18,351 nt of DNA from Phytoactinopolyspora endophytica. GTDB taxonomy: Bacteria; Actinomycetota; Actinomycetes; Jiangellales; Jiangellaceae. The stretch lies in assembly GCF_004138495.1 (NCBI RefSeq), contig NZ_ML142870.1, positions 82,996 through 101,346 on the forward strand, in the 5' to 3' direction. The position numbers and the translations under genes are program-made. Shown here in pieces: positions 12,392 to 16,675 of the stretch. The stretch's first letter is position 1, and each line of letters opens with the position of its first letter. Below the pieces are notes generated by a model. That model did not search any database, had not been told where the DNA came from, and worked only from the letters and a program-made list of their open reading frames with translations.

Positions 12392-12991
12392 CTAATCGTC
12401 CATGCCGCGGGCCTGGAGCGCCTCGCCGAGCGTGTCCGCGTACCTGAGCACGCCGACCACCAGCGGCACGGCGAACGCTCGGATGCTGCGTTCCTGCCCA
12501 CGGGCGCGCTGTGCGTCCCGTACCCGCTGGGCGATGTCGGCGACGACCGGGATGCTGCGGATCGCCAGGGACATCATCAACGCGATCCGTGCCGGATCCA
12601 CGCCGATACGTCGCAACGGCGACAGGCCCTTCTCCATCGCGTCCATCAATGCCGTGGTCCGGGTGGTCAGCGTCACCAGCCCGGCGAGGGCGACGGCGAG
12701 CACGATCCGCGAGGTCAGCGACACTGCCGTCACCCAATCTGTGACCAGCAGCTGGACGGCGAGGATCACGAGCACGAACCACCGCAGCGGCCGGACCTGC
12801 GACCAAGCCTCGCGCGGCCGGACCCGCCCGACGGCGTACAGCACCGCTACGACAGCCACCGCGACACCGACGCTCAGCGGCGTCCGCACCCACAGCAGCC
12901 CGATGCACACGATCGCGAGGACCAGGAGCTTCACACCCGCCGGTAGCCGGTGCAGGGGCGATGAGCGAGCCACGTAGGCGCCGGTCAGCAT
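12392..12991 (-). CDS. ecfT: Energy-coupling factor transporter transmembrane protein (EcfT/BioN-like)
   Basis: A 199-residue inner-membrane protein with about five hydrophobic segments. The C-terminal half holds the two Ala-Arg-Gly coupling motifs that bind the ECF ATPases: ARG at 163-165 (in RDAQRARGQE) and ARG at 194-196 (in EALQARGMDD). SSPLHRLPAGVKL at the N-terminus is typical of the family, and the short length suits BioN. It couples ATP hydrolysis to an S component, here presumably BioY. ATG 12991 begins one base after the thiolase stop, so it is coupled to that gene. The usual ATPase gene is absent beside it. Confidence 0.9.
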   Translation of the reverse strand: MLTGAYVARSSPLHRLPAGVKLLVLAIVCIGLLWVRTPLSVGVAVAVVAVLYAVGRVRPREAWSQVRPLRWFVLVILAVQLLVTDWVTAVSLTSRIVLAVALAGLVTLTTRTTALMDAMEKGLSPLRRIGVDPARIALMMSLAIRSIPVVADIAQRVRDAQRARGQERSIRAFAVPLVVGVLRYADTLGEALQARGMDD

Positions 12992-12992
12992 C

Positions 12993-14279
12993 TCAGCGGA
13001 CCACTTCGAACAAGGCCGCCACACCCAGGCCGCCGCCGACCGCGGCGGTCGCCAGTCCGAGCGTTCCGGCCGGCGCACCGCCCCGAACCAGCCTGCTGAA
13101 CAGCCGGACCACGGTTACAGCGCCGGTGGCACCCCACGGGTGGCCGAGCGCGAGCGCGCCCCCGTCCGGGCAGACCGTCGTAACACCGTTGTGAGAGACG
13201 TCCGTGGTGGTGTCTCCCGGCACTCCAGGCGTCATGATGTCGCCAGGTGCTCCAGGCACAGAGAGAGGATCCAGTCCGAGCGCATCGGTCACGGCCAGGA
13301 CTTGTCCGGCGAAAGCTTCGACGATCTCGACGACGGCGACATCGCGGATCTTCACACCCGCGGATCGCAGCACGCGTTCCACTGCGGGTACCGGACCCCA
13401 CCCTGGCAGCCGGGGATCGCAGCCCACGATGGCACCGGACACCAACCGCAGCCCGGGCCGTCCCCCGCGCGCGTCCTCACCGATCACGCCGACAACCGCG
13501 GCGCCGTCGCTCACCGGGCACGAGTTCCCCGCCGTCACGCTGCCGCCGGGCACGAACGCCGCCGGCATCCGCGCGAGCACCGACTCCCGCAACGGTCGAG
13601 GCCGCTCGTCGTGGTCCAGCCTGCCGACCGGTACCAGCTCCGCATCGAACCGCCCGGCTTCCCTCGCCGCCAACGCCTTGGCATGGCTGGCCACGGCGTA
13701 GTCGTCCTGCCGATTCCGGCTGACACCGCAGGCCGCGGCGAGGGCGTCGGCGGCCGCGCCCATGTCCGGGTCGCCGAACTCCGGCGGGGTGAACGGCGCC
13801 CGCTGATACGGCACCGGCTGCGCGCCGTCGAACGCTGGGCGGAACGCGCGGATCGGCGCCGTCGATGCGCTCTCCGCCCCGCCGGCCAGGACGAGCGCGG
13901 CGTCGCCCGCACGTATCGCCTGCCCGGCCTGAAGGATCGCGGCGAGGCCGCTCCCGCACTGCCGGTCGATCGTGACACCCGGCACGGCGTCGCCCAGCCC
14001 GGCCGCCAAGGCGCTCACCCGAGCGATGTTGCCGCCCGGGCCCATGCAGTTGCCCAGCACCACGTCGTCGATCCGACCCGGCACCGCCGTCCACCGAACG
14101 TGTCGATCCGTCTGACCGCCAGCAGCGTCGCTGACCCTGGCAGTCACGTCCCCACCAAGGTCATCCATAACGGCTTCGAGCACCGGAGCCGCCAGCCGAT
14201 CGACCGTGACCCCGGCCAGCGCCCGGCCGGCGGTGCCGATCGGCGTACGACGCGCCGCAACGACCACGGCCGACGTCAT
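12993..14279 (-). CDS. Thiolase-family protein with altered active site and two extra segments
   Basis: A 428-residue protein, about 45 longer than a usual thiolase. The nucleophile Cys108 (DRQCGSG) and His380 (GHPWGATGA) are present. The Asn of the NEAF motif is Val320 (IVEAFAGQ), the final catalytic Cys of the CxGGG motif is Ala413 (ATAAVGGGLG), and the VN-x-x-GG segment reads VCPDGG. It resembles the YhfS-type thiolases near bioY, whose reaction is not settled; degradative or condensing activity is therefore uncertain. Extra segments lie at about residues 44-69 and 340-368. ATG 14279 gives the family's normal N-terminus TSAVVVAARRTPIGTAG. It lies between the ligase and ecfT in the bioY operon. 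Confidence 0.85.
   Translation of the reverse strand: MTSAVVVAARRTPIGTAGRALAGVTVDRLAAPVLEAVMDDLGGDVTARVSDAAGGQTDRHVRWTAVPGRIDDVVLGNCMGPGGNIARVSALAAGLGDAVPGVTIDRQCGSGLAAILQAGQAIRAGDAALVLAGGAESASTAPIRAFRPAFDGAQPVPYQRAPFTPPEFGDPDMGAAADALAAACGVSRNRQDDYAVASHAKALAAREAGRFDAELVPVGRLDHDERPRPLRESVLARMPAAFVPGGSVTAGNSCPVSDGAAVVGVIGEDARGGRPGLRLVSGAIVGCDPRLPGWGPVPAVERVLRSAGVKIRDVAVVEIVEAFAGQVLAVTDALGLDPLSVPGAPGDIMTPGVPGDTTTDVSHNGVTTVCPDGGALALGHPWGATGAVTVVRLFSRLVRGGAPAGTLGLATAAVGGGLGVAALFEVVR
13176..13262 (-). repeat. Coding insertion 2 in the thiolase, with an internal 27-base direct repeat
   Basis: Codons about 340-368 have no counterpart in ordinary thiolases, where LGLDP is followed almost directly by the VN-x-GG segment. 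The extra stretch contains two related nine-codon units, VPGAPGDIM and TPGVPGDTT, with much identity at the DNA level (shared GCCTGGAG and GGxGACA blocks). It is probably a surface loop grown by duplication. Confidence 0.5.
14113..14146. repeat. Imperfect palindrome within coding insertion 1 of the thiolase
   Basis: TGACCGCCAG (14113-14122) and CTGGCAGTCA (14137-14146) pair at nine of ten positions across 14 bases. The palindrome falls inside an apparent extra segment of the thiolase (residues about 44-69, 14073-14150) that ordinary thiolases lack between the first helices and the VVLGN strand. Confidence 0.5.
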
Positions 14280-14330
14280 CGCCCGACGCTTCCGGGAGAG
14301 ACATGAGCCACGTCTGTGCCCGGTCGGAAC

Positions 14331-14372
14331 GAGCATGCGTTTCGGTCACCATGACGACCGCCATGCATGCTC
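14331..14372. repeat. Two-part hairpin in the ligase-thiolase gap
   Basis: GAGCATGC (14331-14338) pairs perfectly with GCATGCTC (14365-14372). Inside, after symmetric four-base gaps, CGGTC (14343-14347) pairs with GACCG (14356-14360) around an eight-base loop. The structure lies 52-93 bases upstream of the thiolase start in the 211-base gap, so it would form in the operon mRNA. It may be a processing or attenuation site, or a palindromic element. Confidence 0.55.
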
Positions 14373-14418
14373 TTACCGTGACCTCGGCGGATGAGCGCAC
14401 CATGCAGCTTCTGTTCGC

Positions 14419-14514
14419 CCACCACGGGTCCGGTCATGGCGCTCACCGCACTGGCCGGGCGTTCAGCCACCACGGGTCCGGTCATGGCGCTCACCGCACT
14501 GGCCGGGCGTTCAG
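14419..14514. repeat. Exact 48-bp tandem duplication across the ligase stop codon
   Basis: The unit beginning CCACCACGGGTCCGGTCATG occurs twice without a mismatch, at 14419-14466 and 14467-14514. The right copy contains the last codons and TGA stop of the ligase (14491-14493); the left copy lies in the gap before the thiolase. The unit length is a multiple of three. Perfect identity suggests a recent event, such as replication slippage. Confidence 0.95.
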
Positions 14515-16026
14515 CGTGCCCGACGCCAAGCCCTCGCTGATAGCGGCCCGAGCAGGCTTGCCGACCGCCGTCCGCGGCATCCGGTCGATCTCGAACCAGC
14601 GCCGGGGGCGCTGCGCGAGCGACAGCTCCCGCCGTGCGACCGACTCCAGCAACGCCCTGGTCACCGGTGTGCCATCCATGCTCGTGTCGCCACCATCCGC
14701 GCCGTCGTTCTCCGCGTCGTCACCGGCCGCTCCCCTCTCGATGTCCGCGACCTCGACGACCGCCGTGACGACCGCACCGAGTTGCTCGTGCGGCATTCCC
14801 ACGACGACGACGCCGGCAACTCCGGGTACCGCTGCCAGCACCGCCTCCACGTCCTCCGGCACGACGGTGGCGCCGCCGGTCAGGATGGCGCCGTCACCAC
14901 GCCCGCGCAACTGGATCGAACCATGATCATGAACACTAACCGTGCTATATGAACGGTTAGTGTTCATGATCATGGGAGGTGGGAGTTCGGCGAGGTCGCC
15001 GACGGTGGCCCAGCCGTCATCGTCCCACCGGAACGGGCCGGTGGCACCGCCGAGATAGCCCTCGGCGACCCACGGCGAACGCACCCACACCTCGCCCAGC
15101 GTGGCCTCGTCGCCGGTCGGGCGGACGTCGATCTCCACCTCGTCGAACGGGCGCAGGCCCGCTCCGTCGGGATCCACGGCGACGAACGACAGCTCGACAG
15201 CCCCGTAGTACGCGACGACACCGACGCCGGCGGCGGCAGCCCGCTCGCGCAGGCCCGGCGGGAGTGCGGCTCCACTGACCAGCGCGGTTCGTGGCCGGTT
15301 CCTTCGCTGGCTCGCTTCTGGTCCCTGATCCTCGATCCAGGTCAACATCTGGTCGAGCATGTGCGGCACGGCGTGCACGACATCCACCTCGGACAAGACC
15401 TCGCGCACCGCCCGCGGCGACCAGCGCCCGGTGACGATCACCTCCGCGCCCGCGGCCAGCCCGTGCAGAGCTGCGAAGCAGAACAACGACGAGACCAGCG
15501 GCCCGGGAACCAGGACGGTGTCCGACCAGCTCAGACCGCTGAGTTTCTCCGCCGCCGGATACGATCCGATCCACGACTCACGGGTGCGCACGATCGCGCG
15601 TGGGCGGCCGGTGCTGCCCGAGCTGAACCCAGCCCACGCCAGGTCTTCCGGATGCGGCACGTACCTCTCCGGCGGCGGACGCCGTTCCTGCTCCGCCTCT
15701 GGGCGTGGGCGCTCCCGCACGTGGATCTCGGGGGCGACGGCGTCCAAGACGGCTGACCTCTGCTCCTGCGACCACGCGGAGTCGCATACCAGTGGCACCG
15801 CACCGATCGTGTCGGCGGCGAGGAGCACCGTGAGCATGTCCACCGGCTCGGCAACGTCGACCGCGACCAGCCCACCCGGCCGGGCGCCCCGCTCCAACAG
15901 GCCTACCGCGGCAGCGTCCACATCCGCCGCGAGCGAAGCATACGTGCAGGTCCGCGACGGCGAACGCAGCGCGAGACGATCTGGACGCTCCGCGGCACGG
16001 CTGCGGACCTGTTCAGCTACCGGCAC
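14491..16026 (-). CDS. Acyl-CoA synthetase / AMP-dependent ligase of the bioY operon
   Basis: A 511-residue adenylate-forming enzyme. The P-loop-like A3 motif is FSSGSTGRPR (residues 134-143, with Arg in place of the usual Lys), A5 is YYGAVELSF, A8 is GDGAILTGGATVVPEDVEAVL, and the A10 lysine is Lys490 in PRTAVGKPAR. Gene order matches the ligase (YhfT) beside bioY2 in Bacillus subtilis, suggesting activation of a biotin-related or pimelate-like acid, which is inference. Two stretches look inserted: residues 352-368, encoded by a perfect palindrome just before A8, and an acidic, glycine-rich segment at about 429-453 (14668-14742). GTG 16026 has GGGAG five bases upstream. It follows bioY by 34 bp. 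Confidence 0.87.
   Translation of the reverse strand: MPVAEQVRSRAAERPDRLALRSPSRTCTYASLAADVDAAAVGLLERGARPGGLVAVDVAEPVDMLTVLLAADTIGAVPLVCDSAWSQEQRSAVLDAVAPEIHVRERPRPEAEQERRPPPERYVPHPEDLAWAGFSSGSTGRPRAIVRTRESWIGSYPAAEKLSGLSWSDTVLVPGPLVSSLFCFAALHGLAAGAEVIVTGRWSPRAVREVLSEVDVVHAVPHMLDQMLTWIEDQGPEASQRRNRPRTALVSGAALPPGLRERAAAAGVGVVAYYGAVELSFVAVDPDGAGLRPFDEVEIDVRPTGDEATLGEVWVRSPWVAEGYLGGATGPFRWDDDGWATVGDLAELPPPMIMNTNRSYSTVSVHDHGSIQLRGRGDGAILTGGATVVPEDVEAVLAAVPGVAGVVVVGMPHEQLGAVVTAVVEVADIERGAAGDDAENDGADGGDTSMDGTPVTRALLESVARRELSLAQRPRRWFEIDRMPRTAVGKPARAAISEGLASGTLNARPVR
14921..14975. repeat. Perfect 23-bp inverted repeat inside the ligase gene
   Basis: Arms 14921-14943 and 14953-14975 are exact reverse complements, separated by GCTATATGA. 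Each arm consists of the self-palindrome CATGATCATG and an inner GAACACTAACCGT-type block. The arm has 10 G/C of 23, far below its surroundings. On the minus strand it is translated in frame as MIMNTNRSYSTVSVHDH (residues 352-368 of the ligase), between LAELPPP and GSIQLRGRGDG, where related enzymes need only a short turn. Inside it, ATGAAC-N7-GTTCAT (14949-14967) forms an operator-like dyad. It looks like a small inserted element. Confidence 0.95.
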
Positions 16027-16060
16027 CTCTGCTCCCGTCGGTGTGGGCGGGTCTTCTCAC

Positions 16061-16675
16061 TCAAGACGACGAGTTCGACAGCCGTTGGCGCCGGGCAGCC
16101 GGGGACGCGTCAGGGTACGCGCGCTGGGCTCCGACGACGACGGCCGCGGCGGCGACGGACTTCATCGCGTCACCCGGCACGAACACCAACGACAGCGTGA
16201 CCGTCTCCCCCAGCGGCACGCCGGTCACCAACGACTGCACCGGCACACCTATGACCAGGATCAACGTCGAACCGATCAGGCATCCTGCCAGCACCCAGTG
16301 CATGCCCGGACGACGGCCACCCCGTTCGACCAGCCATCCCACGACGAAGGCGCCCACGACCCAGGCGGCCAGGTATCCGACAGACGGCCCGGCGAACACG
16401 CCGAGACCGCCCCGGCCACCGGCGAGCAACGGCAGGCCGGTGGCGACCAGACCCAGGAACAACATCACCGTGAGCGCACCACGCCACGCCCCGAGAATCG
16501 CCCCGGCCAGCAGCACTCCGAGGGTCTGCAGCGTGATCGGCACCGAGTTTCCGAAGAGGTGGAACTGCCCGGGCATGCCGAGCACCGCGATCAGGGCGGC
16601 GAAGACCGCTACTCGGGCCATGTCCGCCGCGGGTAGCACACGCCGGGACGGTGTGCGGGAGTCGGACGTGTTCAT
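16061..16675 (-). CDS. bioY: Biotin transporter S component BioY
   Basis: A 204-residue inner-membrane protein with about six helices. The family hallmark GGRGGLGVFAGPSVGYLAAW is present (about residues 86-105), with FGNSVPITLQTLGVLLAGAILG before it and a PGDAMKS segment near the C-terminus. BioY binds biotin with high affinity; it works with EcfT and an ATPase (BioNM), and some solitary BioY proteins are reported to transport alone. GGAGGA, six bases before ATG 16675, fixes the start. It heads a minus-strand operon with the ligase, thiolase and ecfT. Biotin-dependent control (BirA or BioQ) would be expected, but I find no convincing operator upstream. Confidence 0.93.
   Translation of the reverse strand: MNTSDSRTPSRRVLPAADMARVAVFAALIAVLGMPGQFHLFGNSVPITLQTLGVLLAGAILGAWRGALTVMLFLGLVATGLPLLAGGRGGLGVFAGPSVGYLAAWVVGAFVVGWLVERGGRRPGMHWVLAGCLIGSTLILVIGVPVQSLVTGVPLGETVTLSLVFVPGDAMKSVAAAAVVVGAQRAYPDASPAARRQRLSNSSS

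Follow-up and report, generated by a model that had tools for sequence, protein, structure and literature searches.

The palindrome within the AMP ligase gene of Phytoactinopolyspora endophytica is very likely one copy of a dispersed family of 55-bp palindromic repeats, a family which occurs in the Jiangellaceae and in a few other actinomycetes, has stems particular to each sampled species, sits, in the copies sampled, mostly at gene 3' ends and, where intragenic in the genome of origin (G000), is read through in a single open frame. The best reading is that these are REP/RPE-like palindromic repeats whose arms would be re-matched on the DNA itself. The family is apparently undescribed and new in this lineage. 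Literature searches turned up no such repeat family for these bacteria, and the accessible part of the Jiangella genome paper uses the word 'palindromic' solely for CRISPR (PMC5292007).

The palindrome in the ligase gene

The features at the locus, within the window (the whole stretch of 18,351 nucleotides that was analysed), are:

14921..14975, no strand assigned: 55-bp palindromic repeat with 23-bp arms (C plus CATGATCATG... at each end) and a 9-nt loop, GCTATATGA
14491..16026, minus strand: host gene, an AMP-binding acyl-CoA ligase-like enzyme of 511 aa (PF00501, PF13193)
14920..14973, minus strand: element-derived codons of ligase residues 352-369 (MIMNTNRSYSTVSVHDHG)

The earlier note had described two perfect 23-base arms around a 9-base spacer in an AMP ligase gene, and this is what is found: the arms, 14921-14943 and 14953-14975, have 23 nt each, are 100% complementary and enclose 9 nt. 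Chance would not produce perfect arms this long. The higher A+T content claimed for the palindrome is equally evident. GC content is 42% in the 55-bp element vs 69% over the window, and among 60-base windows from 14000 to 16000 the two centred on the element have 47% and 50% GC, the remainder 62-82%. Only one of the six reading frames is open through the element. No Rfam family matches within the window at gathering score. At 14419-14515 a different repeat, a perfect 48-bp unit in two tandem copies, extends across the 3' end of the ligase gene. The gene itself belongs to a group on the minus strand (12392-16675) in which bioY, the AMP ligase, a thiolase and a CbiQ/EcfT-type gene stand together as a biotin-uptake-linked ligase-thiolase cluster.

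The translation is in frame, as had been noted, with 18 residues (352-369) instead of the 17 counted then. A comparison of the ligase in 20 genomes bears out that related enzymes have just a short turn at this site (17 of 20), and the alignment with these insert-free homologues establishes the palindrome as an insertion. A copy is present in G000, in P. halotolerans (G002) and in G005; it is missing in G001, G003, G004 and 14 further genomes. AlphaFold2, run on a 15-row alignment, places residues 352-369 between two strands with pLDDT <50 (mean 76, pTM 0.69), a score which the presence of the insert in only 3 of the 15 rows may by itself depress. The ligase copy is predicted to form a disordered loop in the turn preceding the A8 hinge and is probably neutral for ligase function.

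The perfect arms had been taken to argue for a recent arrival or for selection. Recent arrival is not supported: the same site is occupied in P. halotolerans, whose ligase is about 72% identical, and in G005, which belongs to another genus. When the variable segment is left out of the ligase tree, G005, G004, G000 and G002 group together with good support (98/92). The placement of G004 inside this clade is weak (85/60), so that the tree would accommodate one origin, followed or not by a loss in G004, as well as two gains. Perfect arms give no date because the arms of diverged copies are also largely paired. Judged from these sequences, the copy need not be recent.

Distribution and anatomy of the repeat family

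Searching the genome and its relatives, as the earlier note had proposed, revealed a dispersed repeat. When 3 mismatches or fewer are allowed, the 22-base arm matches the 7.6-Mb G000 genome 41 times in forward and 40 times in reverse orientation, the reversed control pattern not once. These matches resolve to 43 places, i.e., 39 complete copies, which were aligned, 3 at assembly gaps and 1 decayed. In this draft genome the arm matches make up 53-bp pairs, adjoin a gap or a more diverged arm, or belong to the decayed copy, and no autonomous element with the same ends was seen. By a strict pattern, arms without partner in the fetched loci number 1 of 82 in G000 and 7 of 272 elsewhere. Assembly gaps fall within or border elements at L014, L046, L047 and L024 of G000; draft genomes may undercount copies.

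A covariance model of the 39 G000 copies has matches in 22 of 80 genomes, G000 included. A broader model from 27 diverse copies is positive in 21 of the 22 genomes of the family, which we take to be the Jiangellaceae, P. halotolerans among them; the exception, G007, is 81% complete at 2.3 Mb. Over the class the broader model found 28 of 393 genomes positive, 7 of these outside the family, in a strictly filtered scan that scored a small number of candidates in each genome. A pattern modelled on the G000 stem type, scanned against named genomes with records of the window's own genome possibly excluded, found P. halotolerans CCTCC AB 2017055 alone, with 49 stretches. At an E-value of 0.01 the 55 bp matched nothing in phages or plasmids. 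In viral contigs 11 stretches fit a loose end pattern; all are poorly palindromic (11-15 of 26-28 pairs) and were taken as chance.

The element has a core of 53-54 bp, to which one C/G pair is added to give 55 bp. TGATCAT ends recur across species and the loop usually contains YAT; the stems are species-specific, e.g., CACTTTGCCGTGC in G003 and CAACGGTTGGCGAC in G020. One alignment (A1) comprises the 39 G000 copies retrieved with the arm pattern; every one of them has TGATCA at either end and AT in the loop. In a second alignment (A2) the constancy of ends and loop is partly by construction, since rows needed TGATCAT ends and the strand was picked to show YAT. The 10-mer CATGATCATG occurs 97 times in G000, its reversed control twice. 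Of 50 listed places 39 lie inside the 43 elements and 11 elsewhere; ten of the latter pair too poorly for a good hairpin (9-12 of 20 pairs), and the remaining one folds into an imperfect hairpin of a different sort (14 of 20). An uptake-sequence function was considered and rejected: among the listed places the 10-mer mainly represents element ends. Other TGATC-containing hairpins with unrelated stems were seen in G003 (L237, L098) and G000 (L047 at 6412, L260), which suggests several subfamilies per genome.

With 43 places, mostly at gene 3' ends, a BioQ-like operator dedicated to the bioY-ligase cluster is hardly credible, and the ligase lacks the element in 17 of 20 compared genomes. The earlier note had offered such a regulatory site as an alternative; bioY does adjoin the ligase, and the inner TGAAC/GTTCA half-sites of the palindrome may loosely resemble those of BioQ-type operators, though with different spacing.

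Gene ends, open frames and pairing

Genes were called with a home-made codon-score caller trained on the same loci. A stop codon lies within 20 bp of, or inside, 30 of the 39 scored G000 copies (random intergenic placement, 29%) and 33 of 44 copies in P. halotolerans (random placement, 33%). The neighbour's stop codon is located within the 53 bp in 17 of 39 and 24 of 44 copies, respectively; sampled copies often supply a gene's stop codon. Convergent neighbours surround 13 of 39 copies in G000 (33%, p 0.025) and 22 of 44 in P. halotolerans (50%, p 1e-5) against a background of 18%. G003 shows less of a 3'-end trend (9 of 16 copies close to a stop vs 36%; convergent 3 of 16, p 0.28), and these are the top-scoring copies, not a random sample. 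Copies at 3' ends may serve as bidirectional terminators or as mRNA-end hairpins.

Copies within called genes are few, 2 of 41 in G000 and 2 of 47 in P. halotolerans. Both in G000 are translated in frame, one in the ligase and the other in a urea-carboxylase-like protein, in which it lies in the linker between the CT_A_B and CT_C_D domains; the P. halotolerans counterpart (61% identical) has no copy. The second intragenic copy of P. halotolerans is probably read in frame in an ORF of 767 codons. This case is less certain because the opposite strand is open as well (517 codons) and no Pfam family matched the 742 residues tested. The comparison with Rickettsia RPEs made in the earlier note is thus apt, and its proposal to look for other genes with the element has yielded a second G000 gene and probably this ORF. 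In-frame copies are a minority outcome of the repeat family. Both intragenic G000 copies, at L034 and in the window, happen to lie in biotin-linked genes (a biotin-dependent carboxylase and the bioY-adjacent ligase), probably a coincidence.

The arms are kept paired, with about 18-20 or more pairs in the listed copies. Among the 39 G000 copies, retrieved with a single arm, 94.1% of stem cells are paired vs 91.4% after shuffling, and 0 of 500 shuffles reached as high. In 27 copies from 11 genomes, retrieved by structure model or end pattern and hence biased towards pairing, the values are 98.1% vs 80.3%; of their 20 stem pairs 12 display two-sided changes, 7 are invariant, 1 has only unpaired departures and none has one-sided changes. 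A count of 1683 stem cells in 153 copies (entry threshold 14 of 20 pairs, at least one copy entered twice, L114 = L213) comprises 1549 Watson-Crick, 29 GT, 20 AC and 85 other cells. With GT at 29 and AC at 20 wobble is not favoured, a preference which RNA from both strands, if relevant, would mask, as a G-U pair in one transcript corresponds to A-C in the complementary one. The composition of the stems points to pairing that would be kept at the DNA level.

This bears on the view that the family consists of non-mobile bidirectional terminators, i.e., one sequence selected for recognition by a protein or by RNA polymerase, with the ligase copy as an oddity. We regard it as unlikely, yet deserving some weight. 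Placement at 3' ends and between convergent pairs would suit terminators, as would the sites kept in G000 and P. halotolerans and the predicted RNA hairpin of the 55 bases (-38.6 kcal/mol). The U-tract of an intrinsic terminator, however, is absent: the flanks are G-rich outward and none of columns 1-8 is T-dominated. Nor is wobble favoured, G003 has nearly identical copies at different sites, and intragenic copies together with species-specific stems suggest spread.

Spread, turnover and comparison with known repeats

On the preferred reading as REP/RPE-like repeats, copies may have spread like small non-autonomous mobile elements, in species-specific bursts. A RAYT-type transposase (Y1_Tnp) was found in none of the 22 family genomes, some of which are incomplete; across the 40 genomes searched 2 are positive, both outside the family. 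Direct repeats of 2-5, 8 or 9 bases in the flanks, within 2 bases of the ends, occur in at most 3 copies, near shuffled means (G000, G002, G003), a test which leaves room for duplications of other lengths or within the element ends. The earlier note had suggested that the outer CATGATCATG could be a target duplication; none was detected at the tested lengths, and this sequence is part of the element, present at both ends of most copies. In the flank columns of G000, G002, G003 and G005 copies there is a C at -1, a G at +1 and beyond that only a C-rich or G-rich trend, without a GTAG or CGTC tag.

Classical REPs or REPINs mobilised by a RAYT transposase are therefore a very improbable explanation: Y1_Tnp is unmatched in the 22 family genomes, some of them incomplete, the flank tag is missing, and the stems have at least 20 bp. 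Their genomic habits, as far as the accessible text goes, are similar. GTAG and CGTC REPs follow genes, in the gaps that separate convergent or tandem ORFs, their termini may provide a stop codon and they are sometimes intragenic; CGTC REPs have no known transposase (PMC3733652). Position, stop codon supply and occasional intragenic copies are shared with the present family. Different are the stems, which according to the same text span 5-13 bp in GTAG and 8-9 bp in CGTC REPs (23-bp arms in the window), the missing flank tag and the lack of a wobble preference.

Further likenesses are likewise drawn from partial texts. RPEs are palindromic, several are in frame in unrelated genes at solvent-exposed positions, and they occupy the same locus in orthologues (PMC3767692); with time their repeat identity is said to be lost (PMC6649704). 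Unrelated protein genes have in-frame insertions here, too (ligase and urea-carboxylase-like gene; the third less certain). RPEs differ in length, 100-150 bp vs 55 bp, and here 2 of 41 copies are intragenic. The SPRITE of Streptococcus pneumoniae, with 30 copies in one genome, is a hairpin repeat near gene 3' ends like the present one, yet its 18-bp duplex is followed by a U-rich tract which has no equivalent here (PMC3049150). Mitochondria of Nematomorpha possess perfect coding inverted repeats, comparable to that in the ligase, for which repeat conversion or template switching was proposed to keep the arms; theirs, however, are in conserved protein regions, at least 48 are species-specific in place, and the excerpt does not present them as one dispersed repeat (PMC6649704).

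How old are the sites? When the 39 G000 copies were compared with the loaded P. halotolerans copies (53 counted) at a tolerance of 200 bp, 14 of 39 sites were shared. Five of these lie at exactly the same distance from the neighbouring gene and 12 agree within 30 bp, two being off by 65-68 bp; loop orientation is concordant at 9 of 14. Copies differ by 5.86 at shared and by 6.10 at different sites. Copies at shared sites are as different as any others; together with the loop orientations, this would also fit repeated insertion into hot spots. Among 57 copies from 17 other genomes, a 150-bp criterion places 5 near a G000/G002 site, two with an offset of 70-80 bp. Copies occur at the end of one gene, presumably an ABC ATPase by its motifs, in G000, P. 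halotolerans and G011, of a third genus, whose copy has a stem of its own; G001, G003, G004 and G020 have none there. At that gene end G020 has a different inverted repeat, TTGATCTTGGAGTTT...AAACTCCAAGATCAA (L238).

Copies with GCTAT[TC]TAC loops, a class picked after inspection of the data, are at 1 shared and 11 unshared sites, those with other loops at 13 and 13 (p 0.027); their pairwise difference is 3.6 vs 6.7, as would be expected of a young subfamily. In G003 the flanks contain locus-specific contiguous palindromes, which lengthen the 53-54 bp core by as much as 18 bp. Runs of at least 8 are present in 6 of 16 copies vs 0.4% expected, and of 10000 flank permutations 0 (G003), 16 (G000) and 89 (G002) attain the observed sum.

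At inverted repeats, template switching reportedly homogenises arms and inverts spacers (PMC8604942). By analogy this would fit the turnover facts, without being shown here. Arms may be re-matched at the DNA level by such hairpin-templated copying, a process that could account for flipped loops and for the palindromic growth of flanks, too. Tentatively, and with more doubt than confidence, we propose that a transposase-less family perfects and enlarges itself: template switching during replication would re-match the arms of an existing copy, flip its loop and copy the flanks outward into locus-specific perfect stems. If so, hairpins at old sites would look new, and even copies within coding sequence would remain palindromic.

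The family is a high-GC actinobacterial example of dispersed palindromes, some translated in frame, for which a RAYT transposase was not found. Recurring ends combined with species-specific stems make the spread of CGTC- or RPE-type repeats testable by strain comparison, and the flank palindromes, each peculiar to its locus, may document template switching as it occurs naturally in bacteria.
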